From Phycisphaerales bacterium (GTDB lineage: Bacteria; Planctomycetota; Phycisphaerae; Phycisphaerales; UBA1924): a DNA stretch of 64,000 nt. Numbering within the stretch: position 1 is the stretch's first letter; every line of letters starts with the position of its first letter. Shown in pieces: positions 1,954 through 20,912 of this stretch. A model generated the notes under the pieces. The model was not told the origin of the DNA. It did not search any database and saw only the letters and a program-made list of their open reading frames with translations. The stretch is from assembly GCA_020831775.1 (NCBI GenBank), contig JAFIFZ010000033.1:1-64000 (forward strand), in the 5' to 3' direction. Position numbers and translations under genes: made by a program.

Positions 1954-2092
1954 GGAATAAATCTCCCCCCAAAGAGTCTGTAATGGGCCTGTCCGGCGTC
2001 CACCCGCCGGAGAATGGGTCCGAGTATACTGCTCTCGACCCGCAGCGACGACAGTTCAACTCCAAGAGGCGGTCGGACCGATCTGCAGCACC

Positions 2093-2842
2093 GTGAATGA
2101 ACACCTCAATAGACGGAACGCGCTGGGAATGCTCATTGCCGGCGCTGCGCTGCTCGCGACGGGTTGCAGCTCGCCGCCCCGCAACGGTCGCGTTGGCCAG
2201 CCGCTGCCGGGCACCTCCGGCGGCGGGCGGACTCCCGAGCCTTCGGGCACGAGCACCGCATCGAGCGGCTCGGACGCTGAAGAAGCGTTGCGGGCCTGGC
2301 GGGAACGCTCCAACGGCGCCGCCGGCCCCGGCATGGGCGAGGTCGTCCCCCGGGCGGCCTGGACGACGACCGGGCCGATCGCGTCGCTCGCCCGCCCGAT
2401 GGGTCGGATCGAGCGGATCACTGTGCACCACGACGGGATGGACGAGTTCGACTCGTACTCGCGCCAGGACTCGGCCCGCCGGGTCGAGGCGATCCGGCGC
2501 GCCCATGTCAACCTCGGCTGGGCCGACATCGGGTACCACTACATCATCGACCCCGCCGGACGCGTCTACGAGGGCCGGCCGACGAGCCTCCAGGGCGCCC
2601 ATGTCCGCGACGCCAACGAGCAGAATCTCGGCGTCATGGTGCTGGGCAACTACATGCGCCGCGCCCCCACCGAGGCCTCGGTCGCCTCGCTGGAGTCGTT
2701 CCTCCGCACTGCGATGCGCCAGCACCGGGTGCCCGTGCAGCGGGTGATGACCCACCGCGAGTATGTGCCGACCGCGTGCCCGGGCGACCGCCTGCAGACG
2801 ATGATGAACCAACTCCGGACCAGCCGCGCAGGGCTCGCCTAG
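2093..2842 (+). CDS. Lipoprotein N-acetylmuramoyl-L-alanine amidase (PGRP/amidase_2 fold)
   Basis: This is a predicted zinc amidase that cuts the bond between MurNAc and the peptide stem of peptidoglycan. The start is GTG. The N-terminus combines a twin-arginine-like NRRNALG with a lipobox (LLATGC, Cys25), so it is probably a lipidated, possibly Tat-exported protein. A Ser/Gly/Pro linker (26-80) leads to the catalytic domain at about 85-240. Expected zinc ligands are visible: His112/113 in TVHHDG, His221 in MTHREY and Cys229 in ACPGD. The motif DIGYHYIID holds the conserved Tyr/His region. It is a single gene between divergent and convergent neighbours, with a terminator 30 bases after the stop. 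Confidence 0.9.
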   Translation: MNEHLNRRNALGMLIAGAALLATGCSSPPRNGRVGQPLPGTSGGGRTPEPSGTSTASSGSDAEEALRAWRERSNGAAGPGMGEVVPRAAWTTTGPIASLARPMGRIERITVHHDGMDEFDSYSRQDSARRVEAIRRAHVNLGWADIGYHYIIDPAGRVYEGRPTSLQGAHVRDANEQNLGVMVLGNYMRRAPTEASVASLESFLRTAMRQHRVPVQRVMTHREYVPTACPGDRLQTMMNQLRTSRAGLA

Positions 2843-2872
2843 ACGGCCCCTGTCTGAGCCCGACCCGACTTC

Positions 2873-2897
2873 AAGCCTCGCAGAAGCGGGGCTTTTT
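2873..2897 (+). terminator. Rho-independent terminator
   Basis: An 8-bp stem (AAGCCTCG with CGGGGCTT, one G-T pair) closes a 6-base loop and runs into a T tract. It ends the amidase gene and lies 30 bases before the convergent YggS gene. Confidence 0.8.
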
Positions 2898-2926
2898 GTG
2901 CGCGAGCTCCGGTCGGGGGCGTTCGT

Positions 2927-3709
2927 TCAGGACGAAAAGAGCGCCGAGCCGACGCGGACGATGTTGGCGCCCTCCTCGATCCCGATCTCGTAATCGGCCG
3001 TCATCCCCATCGAGAGGAGGTTGAACTTCCCCTCGCCGATGCCGGTGGTCTTGATCTCGTCGAAGAGCTCGCGGCAGCGGGCGAAGACCGGGCGGGCGTT
3101 CTCGGGGTTGTCGGTGTGCGGCGCCATAGCCATCAGACCGCGCACATGCACATGGGCCATCGACTCGATCTGCTCGGCCAGCGGGAAGGCGGCCGGCAGC
3201 GGGCAGCCGTACTTGGTCTCCTCGCCCGAGCAGTCGACCTGCACCAGCACCTCGATGTCGATGTCCTTCTTCAGGCCGATCTGCTGGAGCTCTTCGGCCA
3301 GCCGGAGCGAATCGACAGAGTGGACCAGGCGGACCAGCGGCGCGATCTTCTTGGCCTTGTTGCGCTGCAGGTGCCCGATCATGTGCCAGCGGACGGGGTC
3401 GTCCGTTTCCGCGGGGAGCAGCGAGGGATCGATCTCGGCGATGTTGCTCCGGCGTGTGCGCTCAAGGAGGCGCAGCCTCTGGGCGTACTCGTCGATGATC
3501 GCGGCACGCTGTTCGAGCTGCTGCGCCTGGCTCTCGCCGAGATGGCGGTGGCCCATCTCGACAAGGGTCTTGATCTGGTCCGGCTCGGCGTACTTGGTGA
3601 CCGCGACGAGGATCACATCCTCAGGTCGCCTGCCCGACCGCTGCGCGGCGTCGGCGATTCGTCCGGTCACTTCGGCGTAACGCTCTTGGAGCGTGGCCAC
3701 TTCCGTCAT
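2927..3709 (-). CDS. yggS: YggS/PROSC-family pyridoxal-phosphate homeostasis protein
   Basis: This is a PLP-binding, alanine-racemase-fold protein thought to buffer free pyridoxal phosphate. The protein is 260 residues, a little longer than the usual 230 or so. The PLP-binding lysine lies in the N-terminal strand ILVAVTKYAEP. Family motifs follow: a WHMIGHLQRNKAKK block, a HSVDS block, LMAMAP, and the C-terminal phosphate-binding region SMGMTADYEIGI...VRVGSALF. I chose the second in-frame ATG because GGAGGG lies 6 bases before it; an ATG five codons upstream overlaps that ribosome site. The gene is transcribed divergently from the peroxiredoxin gene, sharing about 115 bases of upstream DNA. 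Confidence 0.92.
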   Translation of the reverse strand: MTEVATLQERYAEVTGRIADAAQRSGRRPEDVILVAVTKYAEPDQIKTLVEMGHRHLGESQAQQLEQRAAIIDEYAQRLRLLERTRRSNIAEIDPSLLPAETDDPVRWHMIGHLQRNKAKKIAPLVRLVHSVDSLRLAEELQQIGLKKDIDIEVLVQVDCSGEETKYGCPLPAAFPLAEQIESMAHVHVRGLMAMAPHTDNPENARPVFARCRELFDEIKTTGIGEGKFNLLSMGMTADYEIGIEEGANIVRVGSALFSS

Positions 3710-3824
3710 GGATCGGCCCTCCATCCGTGAGGCCGTCGCAGTTTTTTGCGGGCCGCGACGGCGGTCCGGAGGTAGCATACCGCCGCGCGACTCGCCACGC
3801 AGCCGGCGCGCACAGGAGCAACAG

Positions 3825-4860: not shown

Positions 4861-5027
4861 TGTCGCACCCCTGCCGTCGAGGCTCTGTGGCCCTTCGCCC
4901 TCTTGGGGCGCTCGGGGCCGGTGTGAAGCCGACCGGCAGACACGGCCGAGTCACGCGCTGCCATCTGTAAGTCTAGCTTCGGTCAAATACTGATACCACT
5001 CTGGCGTTTGGTCCGATCATTCACGCG

Positions 5028-5855
5028 TCAGTCGCCGCTTCCGGGGGGTGCCAGGAGCACGATCGCGTCGTACAGGGCGTGGGCCCCCACCGCGATCCCC
5101 AGCCCCCGCTGCACAAACAGAACCCCGAAATAGATCCCGGTGAGGAAGTAGTAGCTCCGCAAGCGCCAGGCGTCGGGGCCCTCGACGGGCTCGTGGATCG
5201 CGGCAAACGCCAGGGCGCTGGCGACGACCGCGAGCGCCTTGCCCGAGAGATCCTTCATGCCCAGAAGGTCCACCAGCAGAGCGTGGAGCAGGGTGATCAG
5301 GATCAGGCGGAAGAGCATTTCCTCGTACAGCCCGGCCCCGATCGAGATGATCAGGCGGCTGAACCAGGGCAGATCCCAGAGCGACCCCGCCTCGCGGGCC
5401 GCGAGAGCCGTGGGCGAAAAGAGCACAACCGACAGGGCCAGCAGCGGGACGGTCCAGACCAGGGACTCGCCGGCCATCTTCAGGAGCACCCCCGGGCGGA
5501 TCCGCCAGGGGTGGCTCTTGAGCAGGTGCCACGCCAGCAGGACGACCACCAGCGCGATCGCCGGCAGGTGCACCGACGCGACCCCCAGCGACTCGAAGAC
5601 GCGCCCCATCACCTGCGGCGCCCGGAGCTGCACGCCCACCCCGTCGCCCTGCGACATCAGGAAGAGCGAGCCGAACTCGTAGAGCACGAGCAGCGGGGCG
5701 AGGAAGGCGAGGACATGGAGCGGGCGCTTGGAGAACTCCGCGTAGCCGGGCGGGCCTTCGGGGGGCGCCTCGGGCTTGACCCGCTTGGCTGGCTTACGCG
5801 GGGGTGGCGGGGCCTTGGGGCGGGTCGCCCTGGGTTTCTGGCGGCTGCGGCTCAC
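5028..5855 (-). CDS. CPBP-family intramembrane metalloprotease (CAAX/Abi type)
   Basis: This 275-residue integral membrane protein has a basic, Pro-rich cytoplasmic N-terminus (1-40) and about six to seven hydrophobic segments. The family's catalytic motifs are all visible: Glu178-Glu179 with Arg183 in GLYEEMLFR, His221 in FAAIHE, and His259/Asp263 in GAHALYDA. Members are intramembrane glutamate proteases (Rce1-like). In bacteria they act in peptide maturation, self-immunity or membrane protein turnover. No bacteriocin-like gene is near, so a specific substrate cannot be named. Confidence 0.88.
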   Translation of the reverse strand: MSRSRQKPRATRPKAPPPPRKPAKRVKPEAPPEGPPGYAEFSKRPLHVLAFLAPLLVLYEFGSLFLMSQGDGVGVQLRAPQVMGRVFESLGVASVHLPAIALVVVLLAWHLLKSHPWRIRPGVLLKMAGESLVWTVPLLALSVVLFSPTALAAREAGSLWDLPWFSRLIISIGAGLYEEMLFRLILITLLHALLVDLLGMKDLSGKALAVVASALAFAAIHEPVEGPDAWRLRSYYFLTGIYFGVLFVQRGLGIAVGAHALYDAIVLLAPPGSGD

Positions 5856-5930
5856 GCGGGGACTCTAATCGGCGATCGGCGGGCCCGAACCCCGCACCGA
5901 CAGTGCCCGCGACGATGACAGCGCAGCAAA

Positions 5931-5950
5931 GCAGCCCCGATCGGGGCTGC
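5931..5950 (-). terminator. Probable terminator of rpsT
   Basis: A perfect 20-base palindrome (10-bp arms GCAGCCCCGA) lies 31 bases beyond the rpsT stop codon. On the minus strand it is followed by TTTGCTG, so the T tract is short and termination efficiency is uncertain. Confidence 0.6.
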
Positions 5951-5981
5951 CAGGAAGAATCGTGCTTGGACCGGGGCCGGC

Positions 5982-6251
5982 TCAGCCGTGCTGGAGGGCT
6001 TTGAACCGGGCGACCATGCGGCTCTTGCGCCGGGCGGCCTGGTTCTTGTGGATCACGCCCTTCTGGGCGGACCGGTCGATGACCTTCTGGCAGGTGTGAA
6101 GAGCCTCGCGGGTCTCCTCGACCTTGCCGGCGGCGAGGTTCTCGTTGAACGAACGCATCGCCTGACGCATCGCCCGCAGACGCCAGCGGTTGCGCGAGCG
6201 CTGCTTGATGTTCTGGCGGATCCGCTTTTTCGCCGACCGAGAGTTCGCCAT
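5982..6251 (-). CDS. rpsT: 30S ribosomal protein S20
   Basis: This is a primary 16S rRNA-binding protein of the small ribosomal subunit. The 89-residue, very basic protein starts with the family hallmark MANSRSAKKRIRQN. It has the expected three-helix pattern and ends with the KNQAARRKSRMVARF motif. Length matches the family. AGGAAAGG precedes the ATG at normal spacing. The 230-base region upstream, shared with the divergent tRNA-Arg, should hold its promoter and any leader for autoregulation; I saw no clear structure there. Confidence 0.97.
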   Translation of the reverse strand: MANSRSAKKRIRQNIKQRSRNRWRLRAMRQAMRSFNENLAAGKVEETREALHTCQKVIDRSAQKGVIHKNQAARRKSRMVARFKALQHG

Positions 6252-6485
6252 CGATCCGAACCTTTCCTGCCGCGGGCCCCATCGGAGGGCCCGGACCTGT
6301 GCCTGAGCGGGCCGATTTGGCCCGGTTTGCCGAGTGATTTCTGCCGGTGGTCGCCTGGGCGGCCGCCGGTGGTTGCCGGAGCGCGGCTCCGGGCCCTGAT
6401 GATTGCCCCGAGAGCGGGTGAAATCAACCCCGAGCCGACCCCCCGCTTGCCCGCCCGCCCCGCCCCTCCTAACCTCCGGGCGACT

Positions 6486-6559
6486 GCGGGCGTAGCTCAA
6501 CTGGATAGAGCACCTGACTACGGATCAGGAGGTTGAGGGTTCGAATCCTTCCGCCCGTG
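6486..6559 (+). tRNA. tRNA-Arg(ACG)
   Basis: The acceptor arm is GCGGGCG with CGCCCGT (G1-T72 wobble). T8-A9 and a GCTC D-stem follow. The anticodon stem is CCTGA/TCAGG with loop CTACGGA, giving anticodon ACG. The T arm is GAGGG-TTCGAAT-CCTTC and the discriminator is G. No CCA is encoded. The ACG anticodon, normally modified to ICG, reads CGN codons. The gene is followed at once by a terminator and then by the unusual three-gene cassette. Confidence 0.95.
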
Positions 6560-6565
6560 CTAAAT

Positions 6566-6593
6566 GCCCCCGACGATCGTCGGGGGCGTTTTT
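6566..6593 (+). terminator. Rho-independent terminator of tRNA-Arg
   Basis: A perfect 22-base palindrome with 11-bp arms (GCCCCCGACGA) runs into GTTTTTATT. It is six bases downstream of the tRNA discriminator and insulates the tRNA from the following cassette. Confidence 0.88.
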
Positions 6594-6836
6594 ATTGGGC
6601 GGGAGGCTTGAATCCATGCCTAACACACCCCCAGTCATGGCGGCGGCTTTGGGACCCCCAGTCTGCAATTCTTGAAGTCGACGCAGCATCCGGGACCGAT
6701 CAAGTCCAAAACTCGACGCCAAGTTTGACGTAGAACATGTACCTCGTGGGTGTGCGCGAGTGCTAGACCTTGGAGTTCTATCGACAGATCATGGGGGCCG
6801 ATGTAAGGTAGTGTCTACCCCCAGCAGGAAGGACCC

Positions 6837-7457
6837 GTGCGACTTACTGACTCAAACATCGTGCTCTTAGGCGGATTCAACCCGCACATCATCGAACCCT
6901 CATGGCTCAGCCGTCACGATGTGGTCGAAGAGAAGTCGGACGAGTTCATGACCGAGATCCAGTTCGGTCCCAGCGCTCCACAGATGCTGCGTTTCAATCT
7001 TGACGGCCTCCGTTGGGAGGTGACGCTCGACCGTGTCCTCGTCGGGTCCAGCGAGACTCGCTCGCCCGCCGAGTGGTTGATCCGGCTCTTGGACCTGCTC
7101 CCGCACACGCCGCTTCGCGCGGTCGGGATCAATTTCAAGCTCAGGAGCGAGCGCACGGAGTGGCCCATCGACCTCCCCACGCTCCCTAACCAAGAGGCGA
7201 TCCAGTCCCTTATTGGTGAGGTAGTGACATCGACCGCCGTCACTCGCGGGCGACTAGAGAACGGAACCCAGATGAGCCTCATGCTAAACGCCACGCAGGC
7301 CGAGGTGGTGCTCGACGCGAACTTTCATCGCGGCGTCTTCAACAGCGGAGAGATGTCCGCGATGGAGATGGCGAAGCAAGCGATGACGGAGTTCGATGGA
7401 GACTGGTCGAGGCTCCGCGACATCGTCTCGAAGATGACCGGCAAGGAGGTGGGTTGA
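6837..7457 (+). CDS. Conserved-looking hypothetical protein, cassette gene 1
   Basis: This is a 206-residue soluble protein of unknown function. It starts at GTG with an AGGAAGGA ribosome site. The N-terminal strand NIVLLGGFNPHIIEPSWL and a central block (LLDLLPHTPLRAVGINFKLR) look like parts of a defined fold. They remind me of an uncharacterised bacterial family, but I cannot name it. Codon use is less GC-biased than in flanking genes (TTA, ACT and GTA occur) and ACGT avoidance is preserved within the gene. It is the first of three abutting genes directly after tRNA-Arg, so horizontal acquisition is likely. It may supply one subunit of a small complex with the next two products. Confidence 0.72.
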   Translation: MRLTDSNIVLLGGFNPHIIEPSWLSRHDVVEEKSDEFMTEIQFGPSAPQMLRFNLDGLRWEVTLDRVLVGSSETRSPAEWLIRLLDLLPHTPLRAVGINFKLRSERTEWPIDLPTLPNQEAIQSLIGEVVTSTAVTRGRLENGTQMSLMLNATQAEVVLDANFHRGVFNSGEMSAMEMAKQAMTEFDGDWSRLRDIVSKMTGKEVG

Positions 7458-8110
7458 TGCAAATTTGCTACTACGCCGACGGCGGAGCGACCTCGTCCGC
7501 AGAGCCGATGGACCTCGGCAACGGAACGAGCGGCCAGCGTGACCTCAATCCGAAGCATCAGCCGAAGGATCCGGTGTCAAATGACTCCACATCGGCCGAA
7601 TTGGTCATGTCGCAGTTCCGTGGCCTAGTTGGATCACTATTCCGCTCGCCGATTGCCAGCAAGCGATGCATCCGAGATTGGGTCGTGGACAATGTCGCGG
7701 TCGGTCGGCGGCTGAGCGAGCGAGTCGAGTGCATCCTTGAACACGCGGTTTTGTCTACAAAGCCGAGCCGACTGGATGACGCAATCGACATCCTCGATCA
7801 ACCCCGAGTCGATCTCACCACCTATCTCCGCGATGCTCAGTTCAGGGGCTCCCTAGACCGGAAACCTGAAGACGCGATCTACATCCTCGTTCGTGCCGCG
7901 GGGCGTCGATCCGATGACGCCGCGAGGTTTGTAGTTCCGTGGGCTCTCAAGTCCGACCAGGCCTCCGTCCGCGAAGCCGCGGTTGAGGCGTTGGCTGACC
8001 TTGGTACCGAGGCCGCAATCTCCATGCTTCGCCGGGTCTCCCAATTTGACGACTCGTCGTCGGTTCGGGAGACCGCGAAGGAGGTTCTCGAAGATATCGT
8101 CGAGGGTTAA
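7457..8110 (+). CDS. HEAT-repeat protein, cassette gene 2
   Basis: The product is a 217-residue protein whose ATG overlaps the stop of gene 1 by one base (TGATG). A textbook AAGGAGGT ribosome site lies 6 bases upstream, so translation is coupled but independently primed. The first 45 residues are polar and look disordered. Residues from about 110 hold helical pairs. The last 70 residues contain two HEAT-like repeats, with the pattern SVREAAVEALADLG...A..MLRRV and SSSVRETAKEVLEDI. HEAT arrays usually bind other proteins, so I expect a scaffold or partner for gene 1 or gene 3. No catalytic motif is visible. Confidence 0.75.
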   Translation: MQICYYADGGATSSAEPMDLGNGTSGQRDLNPKHQPKDPVSNDSTSAELVMSQFRGLVGSLFRSPIASKRCIRDWVVDNVAVGRRLSERVECILEHAVLSTKPSRLDDAIDILDQPRVDLTTYLRDAQFRGSLDRKPEDAIYILVRAAGRRSDDAARFVVPWALKSDQASVREAAVEALADLGTEAAISMLRRVSQFDDSSSVRETAKEVLEDIVEG

Positions 8111-8647
8111 ATGGCGAAGTCGATCGCGGAGGATTTCGACCCTTCCGGTCTCTCGTCGGCGGGACCTCCCATCTTTGTGAGGAAGGTGTCTCGCCGTCGC
8201 CACTGGCGAGGCGAGGACGGGATGACCTTGGACGAGCGCATTCATCATGCCGCCGCTGAGGTGTTCACCAACGACGATGGCCGCGTTAGCGTGTTCAAGG
8301 TGGAGAACGCCGACGACTTCTACCGCGTTGCGATTGGGCTCAACTCCGGGAGAGGGAGTCTCAAGGAACAGCTTGAGATTCTCGGAATCACTCCCGGCGA
8401 CATCGAAGCGTCTGGGCTCGCTCTGGAGCAAACTCCGGGCGACACGGACTGTCTCCACGCAAATGCGAGGCACTACGACATCATCCACGATGATGCAGCG
8501 ATCGAGCGTCTCGTTCGGCGTCTGGTTGATCAGGGTCGCCTCGACCATCGTTACAAGAAGCAGATGGAGCGAGCGGCTCAGTCGGCGCTCGCAATCGGTT
8601 GTCGGGCCACGGAATCGACGCTGCCTCAGTGCCAGTGCGAGATTTGA
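8111..8647 (+). CDS. Hypothetical protein, cassette gene 3
   Basis: The ATG begins on the base after the TAA of gene 2, with GAGGG four bases upstream, so the three genes form one translation-coupled operon. The 178-residue product is polar, with a basic patch near residues 24-33 (RKVSRRRHWR). A strand-rich middle follows (RVSVFKVENADDFYRVAIG), and then a helical segment with many charged residues. The C-terminus carries closely spaced cysteines (CQCEI). No known domain is recognised. Codon use and GC match genes 1 and 2, not the flanking housekeeping genes. Confidence 0.68.
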   Translation: MAKSIAEDFDPSGLSSAGPPIFVRKVSRRRHWRGEDGMTLDERIHHAAAEVFTNDDGRVSVFKVENADDFYRVAIGLNSGRGSLKEQLEILGITPGDIEASGLALEQTPGDTDCLHANARHYDIIHDDAAIERLVRRLVDQGRLDHRYKKQMERAAQSALAIGCRATESTLPQCQCEI

Positions 8648-8814
8648 CGAACACCTCCGCCACGTGATTATCGGGGAGCGCGTCGCGGTTGGTCTCAACT
8701 TCCGGAATCGTCTGCGCCTTGATCGTCTGCCCAAGCCCAGCCCCCACCCCCCTACCCTTGCACCCAACTCCACCACAGACCCGGGGCCTCTGCGTCCCGC
8801 AGGGGGTCATCTGA

Positions 8815-10488
8815 ATGGCCGAGCAGACACAGACCGGCGGGCTTTTGCAGCTCACCTCCGAGTACCTCCGCACCGAGGCGACGATCCGCCTGGGCGGGGG
8901 GGAGAAAGCCGCGCAGCGGCAGCACGAGAAGGGGCGGCTCACCGCCCGCGAGCGGGTCGGCCTGCTGCTCGATGAGCCCGGGTCGTTTCAAGAGCTCGGT
9001 CTGTGGGCGGCCTACGGCATGTACGCCGAGCACGGGGGGGCGCCCGGGGCCGGGGTGGTGACGGGGCCGGGGGTGATCCACGGGCGACGGTGGATGGTGA
9101 TCGCCAACGACGCGACGGTGAAGGCGGGCGCGTTTTTCCCGATGACCTGCAAGAAGATCATCCGGGCGCAGACGATCGCGCACGCGGCCCGGATGCCGCT
9201 GGTGTACCTGGTCGATTCGGCGGGCGTCTTCCTGCCCTTGCAGGAGGATGTGTTCCCCGACACCGACGACTTCGGGCGGATCTTCCGCAACAACGCGGTG
9301 ATGAGCGCCGAGGGGATCCCGCAGATCGCGGCGATCATGGGCTACTGCGTCGCGGGGGGCGGGTACCTGCCGGTGCTGTGCGACACCCTGCTGATGACCG
9401 AGGGGAGCGGGCTGTACCTGGCCGGGCCGGCGCTGGTGAAGGCCGCGATCGGGCAGCAGGTCAGCGATGAGGAGCTCGGCGGGGCGGAGATGCACGCGCA
9501 GATCTCCGGCACGATCGATTTCAGAGAGGCCGACGACAAGGCGTGCGTGCGCCGGATCCGGGGGCTGATCGAGAAGTACGGGTTTGAGGCTCGGACGCCG
9601 GCGAAGGTGAGCCGCCCGGCCCGGGACGCGTCGGACCTGTACACGCTGTTTACCGACAAGCCGGGCGAGCAGTACGACATCCTGGACATTCTCTCGTGCG
9701 TGGTCGACTCGCGGACGGCGCCCAACAGCGACGGGCACGAATCGCTCGAGCCGGAGCTGGACGAGTACAAGGCCGAGTACGGGCGTTCGCTGGTGTGCGC
9801 CTATGCCAAAATCGGCGGGCACGCCGTGGGGATCGTGGCCAACCAGGGCAAGCTGACCGAGCGTGCGATGGCGGGCGGGAAGGCGGGGCCCTCGAAGTCG
9901 ACGAACATGCCGCGGGTGATTTATGACGAATCGGCCGACAAGGCGGCGCGGTTCATCATGGACTGCAACCAGCGGAAGATCCCGCTGGTGTTCGTGCACG
10001 ACACGACGGGGTTCATGGTCGGCCGCGACAGCGAGCAAGGCGGGATCATCCGTGCGGGTGCGAAGATGGTCAACGCGATGAGCAACTGCGTGGTGCCGAA
10101 GATCGTGCTGATCATCGGCGGCAGCTACGGGGCGGGCAACTACGCGATGTGCGGGCGCGCGTTCGACCAGTTCGTCTCGATGGCGTGGCCGGGGTCGCGG
10201 TGCGCCGTGATGGGCGCCGCCCAGGCGACGGGGACGCTGGCGATGATCGAGCAGCGCTCGCGCGAGAGGCGGGGCGAGGAGATCGACGCGGAGACGCGCG
10301 ACCAGATCCTCGCGGCCGTCCGCGACAGCTACAACGAGCAGCAGGACATCCGCCACGGTGCGGCCCGGGGCTGGGTGGACCGGATCATCGAGCCGCACCG
10401 CACGCGGGAGGAGCTGATCGCGGCGCTGGAGAGCGCGTGGAACTGGGACTACAGCCGCGGGTTCAGGACGGGCGTGCTGCAGACCTGA
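8815..10488 (+). CDS. Acyl-CoA carboxylase, carboxyltransferase beta subunit (MCC/PCC type)
   Basis: The enzyme transfers carboxyl from carboxybiotin to an acyl-CoA such as methylcrotonyl- or propionyl-CoA. The 557-residue protein has the two crotonase-like halves expected of this family. The N-terminal half contains KGRLTARERVGLLLD, VIANDATVKAGAF and the LVDSAGVFLPLQ.E block. The C-terminal half contains FVHDTTGFMVG and the oxyanion region GGSYGAGNYAMCGRAF, then PGSRCAVMGAAQATGTL. The LPLQ(E)DVFPD stretch resembles methylcrotonoyl-CoA carboxylase beta chains, so leucine breakdown is the most likely role. The biotin-carrying alpha subunit is not in this window. AGGGGG precedes the ATG by about 10 bases. 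Confidence 0.9.
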   Translation: MAEQTQTGGLLQLTSEYLRTEATIRLGGGEKAAQRQHEKGRLTARERVGLLLDEPGSFQELGLWAAYGMYAEHGGAPGAGVVTGPGVIHGRRWMVIANDATVKAGAFFPMTCKKIIRAQTIAHAARMPLVYLVDSAGVFLPLQEDVFPDTDDFGRIFRNNAVMSAEGIPQIAAIMGYCVAGGGYLPVLCDTLLMTEGSGLYLAGPALVKAAIGQQVSDEELGGAEMHAQISGTIDFREADDKACVRRIRGLIEKYGFEARTPAKVSRPARDASDLYTLFTDKPGEQYDILDILSCVVDSRTAPNSDGHESLEPELDEYKAEYGRSLVCAYAKIGGHAVGIVANQGKLTERAMAGGKAGPSKSTNMPRVIYDESADKAARFIMDCNQRKIPLVFVHDTTGFMVGRDSEQGGIIRAGAKMVNAMSNCVVPKIVLIIGGSYGAGNYAMCGRAFDQFVSMAWPGSRCAVMGAAQATGTLAMIEQRSRERRGEEIDAETRDQILAAVRDSYNEQQDIRHGAARGWVDRIIEPHRTREELIAALESAWNWDYSRGFRTGVLQT

Positions 10489-10519
10489 GCGGGGTTTGGC
10501 GCCGATGTCGCGTTCGGAC

Positions 10520-20168: not shown

Positions 20169-20912
20169 TCAGTTTCCAGTCACCGCGCGCACGCGTTCTG
20201 CCAGCATCTTCAGCTCTTCCCGATCCTCAAACGCGTAGAGGCCGATCACGCGTCGGTCGGGGCCGATGAGGATCAGCCGCGTCGGGTGGTTGATGTTGTA
20301 CATGAACGCACCGTCGCCGAGGTCGAACCGGCGCGAGCGGTCTTCGGAGACATTGAAGCCGAGTTCTTCGGACGCGATGCGCATCACCGTCTCGGCGGGC
20401 ACATTGATGAACGACCAACGGCTCTGGTCGGCGCGGTTGTTCTCTGCGTAGGCGAGCAGGGCCTCGGGTGTGTCGCGCTCGGGATCGACGGACATGCTCA
20501 GGAAGCGGACGGGCGTGCCCTCCAGCTCGTTCTGGACGCGGCGCATCGCGGCGGTCATCCCCGGGCAGGCGAGCGGGCAGTTGGTGAAGAAGAAGTCCAT
20601 GATCGTGTAGCCGCCTTCGAGGATGGACTGGTCCACCGGCTCGCCCCGCTGGTCGACGCCCTCGAACGCGCCGATGCGCATGTCTTCCAGCCCGGGGTCG
20701 GGCTCGGTGGGGCTCTGCGATGGGTCGCGGCGGGGGCGGACGGTGATCACGCGGTCGTCGTTCGGATCGACCGGGCCGCCGAGCGTCGGGATGTTCTCCG
20801 GCGGGCCCTCCGAGGGTGAGCCCGGACGCGAGAAGAACGCGATCGCGATGAACATCGCGACAGAGACGGTGAACGCGAGCACGGCAATCGGCAGAAACCA
20901 GCGGGGCATCAT
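20169..20912 (-). CDS. SCO1/SenC-family copper chaperone
   Basis: This is a membrane-anchored thioredoxin-fold protein that delivers copper to the CuA site of cytochrome c oxidase. The 247-residue protein has one N-terminal membrane helix (about 7-27) and a Pro-rich periplasmic linker. The SCO domain follows, with the copper-binding pair Cys112/Cys116 (TNCPLACPG) and a later histidine in NINHPTRLILIGP. Its first ATG overlaps the asnB stop (ATGA), so it is translationally coupled as the last gene of the ugd-asnB operon. ctaB, another oxidase-assembly gene, lies 40 kb away in this window. Confidence 0.92.
   Translation of the reverse strand: MMPRWFLPIAVLAFTVSVAMFIAIAFFSRPGSPSEGPPENIPTLGGPVDPNDDRVITVRPRRDPSQSPTEPDPGLEDMRIGAFEGVDQRGEPVDQSILEGGYTIMDFFFTNCPLACPGMTAAMRRVQNELEGTPVRFLSMSVDPERDTPEALLAYAENNRADQSRWSFINVPAETVMRIASEELGFNVSEDRSRRFDLGDGAFMYNINHPTRLILIGPDRRVIGLYAFEDREELKMLAERVRAVTGN

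Follow-up and report, generated by a model that had tools for sequence, protein, structure and literature searches.

A three-gene insertion beside tRNA-Arg(ACG) in a Phycisphaerales bacterium is probably a conflict cassette with exchangeable partner genes

CmdTAC is a toxin–antitoxin–chaperone system that defends through an mRNA ADP-ribosyltransferase; its chaperone senses a capsid protein and releases the ADP-ribosyltransferase (PMC11618068). ADP-ribosyltransferases in general have been divided by active site into H-H-h, H-Y-[EDQ] and R-S-E clades (PMC9503650). Here we describe a locus whose logic would resemble that of CmdTAC, with no relationship between the two claimed. It lies in a 64,000-nucleotide stretch of DNA from a Phycisphaerales bacterium (GenBank assembly GCA_020831775.1, contig JAFIFZ010000033.1, positions 1 to 64,000; hereafter the window) and consists of three short plus-strand genes after tRNA-Arg(ACG). 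We consider this triad to be probably a cassette for biological conflict that was gained by horizontal transfer and is most likely directed against phages, built as sensor, adaptor and effector, with a candidate ADP-ribosyltransferase as the effector. We infer this function from several features: the genes are inserted at the 3′ end of a tRNA gene, occur sporadically, recur as the same triad within an integrated element and have relatives in phages and on plasmids, and relatives of the first gene are followed by exchangeable last genes, some of them of nuclease type. Mobile carriage and sporadic distribution are a hallmark of defence systems, and the cassette has both.

Like CmdTAC, the cassette comprises three adjacent small genes, of which one encodes a predicted ADP-ribosyltransferase, one a candidate non-enzymatic sensor and one a middle partner. 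In CmdTAC, CmdC is SecB-like, whereas neither gene 1 of the cassette nor 10 of its relatives has a SecB match in Pfam and gene 2 encodes a HEAT protein; the H-Y-[E,D,Q] triad of CmdT has no counterpart in the conserved columns of gene 3, which are R, W, S, W, G, T, H and D, with no Y. Since the cassette lacks that triad and Pfam gives no similarity to SecB, we do not assign it to CmdTAC. SecB was also not among the 50 VIA structural matches listed for the gene-1 model, a listing that does not exclude it.

The three-gene segment is an insertion beside tRNA-Arg(ACG) (6486..6560, plus strand, called by ARAGORN). By blastn, window 4906-6562 corresponds to positions 2069-3726 of locus L133 in the same-genus genome G001 (93.0% identity) and window 8753-10489 to L133 3777-5513 (97.1% identity). 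Because both flanks are thus continuous in G001 with 50 bp between them (L133 3726 / 3777) instead of 2,190 bp (window 6563..8752), we identify the segment as inserted. On the left the segment is delimited by the tRNA 3′ end, with same-genus identity stopping at 6562, and a terminator-like inverted repeat with a T run, read by eye at 6566..6593 (plus strand), is unlike that of G001. The gene to the left of the tRNA presumably encodes ribosomal protein S20; this product occurs near tRNA-Arg(ACG) in 16 of the 28 loci found with that protein. A preliminary description of the DNA had suspected tRNA-adjacent integration, which the empty site in G001 bears out, and had noted lower G+C content and codon use. 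Indeed, the insert has 60.2% G+C compared with 66.9% for the whole window, and G+C at third codon positions is low though not extreme: 7, 2 and 4 of the 48 other open reading frames (ORFs) called by a simple ORF caller on the window lie at or below genes 1, 2 and 3, respectively. The same description had found neither an integrase nor a second copy of the tRNA 3′ end, which holds within the insert: the ORF list of the window leaves no ORF there that could hold an integrase, and a tRNA-like repeat at the right end (8648-8667) was rejected as a tRNA 3′-end remnant because 85 of 500 shuffles scored equally well or better.

Gene 1 (6837..7457, GTG start, 206 amino acids (aa)), gene 2 (7457..8110, ATG start, 217 aa) and gene 3 (8111..8647, ATG start, 178 aa) are co-directional on the plus strand, with an overlap of 1 base between the first two and a gap of 0 bases between the last two, exactly as first reported. 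Purine-rich stretches, read by eye, precede gene 1 (aggaagg) and gene 2 (aaggagg). Gene 1, the candidate core or sensor, has no family match in Pfam (below E 0.1), NCBIfam, PADLOC or PHROGs. The C-terminal HEAT repeats recognized earlier in gene 2, the candidate adaptor, were recovered by Pfam (PF13646, E 3.3e-9), with two weak HEAT-type matches in PADLOC 2023 (best E 0.0043). Gene 3, a candidate effector with an ADP-ribosyltransferase-like predicted fold, likewise matches no family in these four libraries by the same Pfam limit, its single Pfam row, at E 0.18, being at chance level; its phage relatives constitute phrog_10743, a PHROG of unknown function.

Gene 1 occurs in only 1 of 100 other relatives (G056), and this, together with the empty site in G001, led us to reject the reading of the triad as core genes, an outcome opposite to the one that would have undone the preliminary description. 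Profile searches extended this to the class, where 10 of 396 other genomes have a gene-1 relative, and to the phylum, where 19 of 391 others do (the latter including a 43-residue match in G543 that we left out of the loci read below), with further relatives in records of Ralstonia and Sulfuritalea and on a plasmid of Adhaeribacter; the family shares a motif of the type FNPxI...PHTPxxAxGxN. Co-occurrence of all three genes was confirmed in G056, G435 and G110, where identity to the window copy is 37, 48 and 31% for gene 1 and 29, 51 and 29% for gene 3, respectively. Among phages, tblastn found neither gene 1 nor its relative from a HEPN-type operon (L019), and among viral contigs gene-1 relatives made up 0 of 17 matches to pattern A1, 0 of 22 to pattern A12 and 1 of 111 to pattern A13.

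The G056 triad is part of a 15.4-kb element (L003 3601-19049) with a 44-nt repeat at each end; the two copies are identical, and one lies at the 3′ end of tRNA-Arg(CCT). Among the genes of the element are those for a primase (E 5e-24) and, by PHROG match, a tyrosine-type integrase (E 6.2e-22); the element is possibly a phage satellite of planctomycetes. Compared with tRNA-targeting integrative elements and phage satellites, the window copy is alike in its insertion at a tRNA 3′ end and differs in lacking both an integrase and a significant end repeat, whereas the G056 copy resembles them in integrase, primase and 44-nt end repeats.

To see what accompanies gene 1, we read the downstream genes at 36 gene-1 loci (the window, L003, L016-L026, L049-L068, L071, L073 and L101). 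According to profile matches, the last gene belongs to the gene-3 family at eight loci (the window, L003, L017, L018, L060, L065, L066 and L068), encodes a HEPN-type protein at seven and a metallo-beta-lactamase (MBL) at six, and belongs at another six to a family of about 300 aa with a 'QGD...TQSCDLVRR' motif. Single loci carry an HNH gene (PADLOC PtuB, E 7.5e-9), a PIN gene (L062; Pfam, E 9.4e-10) and a retroviral-type aspartyl protease gene (Pfam, E 7.1e-7). Four loci have no class assignment (L021, L059, L063 and L064); the L064 contig stops after gene 2, and the last genes of L021 and L059 resemble, by eye, diverged members of the ~300-aa class. The remaining two loci are cut by contig ends (L024 and L052). 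The HEPN, MBL and ~300-aa profiles were seeded from five, five and three of the counted loci and the gene-3 profile from six of its eight, such that the seed-independent matches are L049 and L050 (HEPN), L101 (MBL), L055, L056 and L057 (~300 aa), and L065 and L068 (gene 3).

Several of these last genes match components of described defence systems. The L016 protein matches Lactamase_B in Pfam (E 1.9e-11) and RTasMBL, LmuA and Avs1a in PADLOC; the L019 protein matches HEPN at E 0.007 in Pfam, missing Pfam's cut-off, and at 2.6e-5 in PADLOC; and that of L061 matches HEPN at E 0.0062. Last genes of other gene-1 operons match effector families of Septu (the HNH protein PtuB), Lamassu LmuA, the DRT-associated MBL and PADLOC HEPN families, whereas the remaining components of those systems, such as the PtuA ATPase, were not seen in these operons and gene 3 of the window matches none of the families. 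The ~300-aa family recurs as a gene-1 partner at L023, L026, L055-L057 and L071, including in Ralstonia, and the two full-length members scanned (L023 and L071) have no Pfam match. Three individual loci have further features. The aspartyl-protease operon (L054 5411-7132; G656 contig 15) lies between portal-like and prohead-protease-like prophage ORFs, an ORF reading like a type I restriction methylase (HsdM) adjoins the gene-1 operon of L059 (5012-5929), and the gene-3 relative at L068 (8190-8858) ends in a hydrophobic helix, as if membrane-anchored.

Gene 3 and its HEAT partner also occur behind other first genes. Counting the window's own, gene-3 relatives are present in 8 of 397 genomes of the class. 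Three loci (L089, L091 and L093) are three-gene operons with other first genes, and two (L090 and L092) have, by our reading, genes 2 and 3 only. Triads with gene 3 and a HEAT gene 2 are found on small Klebsiella and Acinetobacter plasmids and in temperate phages. Nine records of a plasmid collection match gene 3, and five of the six regions opened contain a triad (L083, L084, L086, L087 and L088), the sixth (L085) having genes 2 and 3 only. The A. baumannii record in this collection is chromosome-sized, and its triad adjoins an endolysin-like ORF, as in phage Ab105-1phi. The triad DNA from Klebsiella was not found in E. coli genomes. Of 69 pattern matches in viral contigs, 7 are gene-3 relatives; six have a triad, which in three contigs (L096, L099 and L100) directly follows an integrase-like ORF by our reading, and the seventh contig starts at gene 3. 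Eleven Acinetobacter phage records match, and all three that were opened have the triad after the endolysin or the corresponding ORF. The annotated length of gene 3 is 594 nt in Ab105-1phi (L102 3501-4094) but 186 nt in two related phages (L103 3501-3686 and L104 3501-3686), in which the two preceding genes are unchanged in length.

Profile comparison with hhalign shows that the C-terminal HEAT domain of gene 2 is common to the window type and the phage type (P 6.2e-10). The phage-type gene 1 is related to that of L089 and L091 (P 1.7e-5), whereas gene 1 of the window type, represented by a set that omits the truncated L024 and L052, gave P 0.15 against the former and P 0.27 against the latter, and for this reason we claim no homology between them. 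Since the gene-2 C terminus is shared and the first genes are not detectably related, exchange, as judged from sequence, is two-way: one gene 1 is combined with many last genes, and at least two first genes share one gene-2/gene-3 module.

These contexts also fit a different role. The triad may be a toxin–antitoxin–chaperone addiction module, with gene 3 as the toxin, gene 2 as the antitoxin and gene 1 as a folding helper, that keeps a mobile element in place and is not anti-phage. Three short, tightly packed genes carried on 4.4-8 kb plasmids and prophages would suit such a module, as would the shorter annotation of gene 3, as if costly, next to full-length neighbours in two Acinetobacter phages; a HEAT protein, however, is not a typical small antitoxin, and some last-gene classes (the aspartyl protease and the ~300-aa family) are not known classical toxins. 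We regard this explanation as having perhaps one chance in a handful, and it overlaps with an anti-phage cassette because addiction modules can also defend. The position of triads beside integrase-like ORFs or after an Acinetobacter phage endolysin would likewise be expected of superinfection exclusion or another prophage 'moron' function, such as lysis or a surface change, that later spread to chromosomes. Such a function is improbable: the coupling of gene 1 to HEPN, HNH and metallo-beta-lactamase proteins suggests attack on nucleic acids over surface change, and triads occur on small plasmids as well.

The predicted structure of gene 1 (predicted local distance difference test score (pLDDT) of 85.5, predicted template modelling score (pTM) of 0.83) matches AdoMetDC by Foldseek with E 2.6e-5 and a template modelling (TM) score of 0.36, and its VIA neighbours are McsB, TBP and AdoMetDC, with Z about 7. 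We set these three aside as identities for gene 1, judging the similarity to reflect a common fold arrangement. The viral protein A0A515MGR4 matches the model well (E 9.7e-11, TM 0.62) at 19% identity. A small regulatory or metabolic accessory operon with no role in conflict, for which HEAT proteins as common scaffolds and a gene 1 sharing just common folds could be cited, is equally improbable, because the genes are sporadically distributed, lie in mobile contexts and have exchangeable partners of nuclease type.

The preliminary description had recognized a fold in gene 2 only; the HEAT assignment stands, and gene 3 now appears weakly ADP-ribosyltransferase-like in its predicted model. An AlphaFold2 model built from ten sequences has an alpha/beta core (pTM 0.68), and when Foldseek candidates were compared using VIA, 24 of the 28 matches listed (rows 1-23 and 25) have the ADP-ribosyltransferase fold. 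The best neighbour is Tpt1/KptA (Z 5.3, 3.2 Å over 91 residues; we take 1wfx to be Tpt1), with DarT at Z 5.0 and 4.8 and with SdeA, CteC, pertussis toxin and RhsP2, presumably also an ADP-ribosyltransferase, listed as well. A Z near 5 alone proves little, and it is because several separate families agree that we consider this fold for gene 3 somewhat better than an even bet. Among 21 aligned sequences, W32, S60 and H121 are each present in 21, as is W or F at position 62, with R24, G110 and T112 in 19 and D123 in 18. In the model, strand 1 contains R24, strand 2 contains S60, and the strand spanning residues 121-125 begins with H121, so that R24, S60 and H121 appear to be placed like the three active-site positions of the superfamily. 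Two of them fit the R-S-E clade and the third is H instead of E; a histidine at the third position would be unusual.

Several observations weigh against this assignment. The model has a pLDDT of 70.4, its best Foldseek match in the PDB is a KH domain at E 0.56, and no recognized ADP-ribosyltransferase is among the 50 Foldseek matches listed. Values of Z near 5 fall below the 7-8 often reached by unrelated models. Profile comparison of gene 3 with DarT (P 0.27; 9 loci used of 11 submitted and 16 existing) and KptA (P 0.14; 11 of 11 used) gave no support, in a test of low power in which the DarT versus KptA control reached only P 0.048. A conserved acidic residue in the third strand is typical of many ADP-ribosyltransferases, and it is absent from the conserved columns of the 21 gene-3 sequences. 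The gene-3 profile also gave only chance-level matches among PDB sequences (best E 0.78). DarTG and Tpt1/KptA are the best structural neighbours of the model (Z 4.3-5.3), and beyond this likeness they differ from the cassette: four gene-3 proteins scanned have no Pfam match to DarT or PTS_2-RNA, profile–profile support is lacking as above, and a gene for a DarG-like macrodomain partner is absent from the cassette.

If the triad works as a conflict cassette, gene 1 would be the sensor common to all these cassettes and would sense an infection product; gene 2, or its counterpart, would act as the adaptor coupling gene 1 to gene 3. The last-gene effector, in this case the ADP-ribosyltransferase-like gene 3, would be kept inactive until released, and would then modify a nucleic acid or protein target of the cell or phage, such that phage growth stops. 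Against an anti-phage role stand the lack of any match of genes 1 and 3 to catalogued defence systems in PADLOC 2023, the same lack for the plasmid triads, and the fact that the link between the three proteins is their gene order and not contact; in addition, the L062 PIN protein may belong to an ordinary neighbouring toxin–antitoxin pair. The resemblance to a defence mini-system seen in the preliminary description has been strengthened by the HEPN, HNH, PIN and metallo-beta-lactamase partners and by triads in phages, on plasmids and in an integrated element, with defence itself still something that we infer. Elsewhere in the window, ARAGORN called a tRNA with a two-base anticodon (gg) at 20688-20780 that is probably spurious.

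Gene 1 is without a family in four libraries, the phage relatives of gene 3 form a PHROG of unknown function, and our search of the literature, which covered few subscription papers and little of bioRxiv, found no description of such cassettes. Tripartite conflict modules are already known as a general kind, and the unusual exchangeability of the effectors would be what is new here. With chances that we put at about even, the loci belong to a modular immune platform in which a gene-1 family is combined with at least seven classes of last gene, and a module of HEAT protein and R-S-H ADP-ribosyltransferase-like protein with at least two sequence-unrelated gene-1 families; phages, small plasmids and tRNA-targeting elements would have carried it across planctomycetes, proteobacteria and Bacteroidota. 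If this is true, gene 1 would define a family of tripartite defence cassettes missing from current catalogues, with effectors swapped like cartridges, and these effectors would include a candidate ADP-ribosyltransferase subfamily with an unusual set of conserved residues. The triads of phages and small plasmids are short and complete, making what gene 1 senses and what gene 3 targets testable questions. The platform would also account for a class of 'hypothetical' genes that common bacteria carry on plasmids of 4-8 kb and that lie next to phage integrases.

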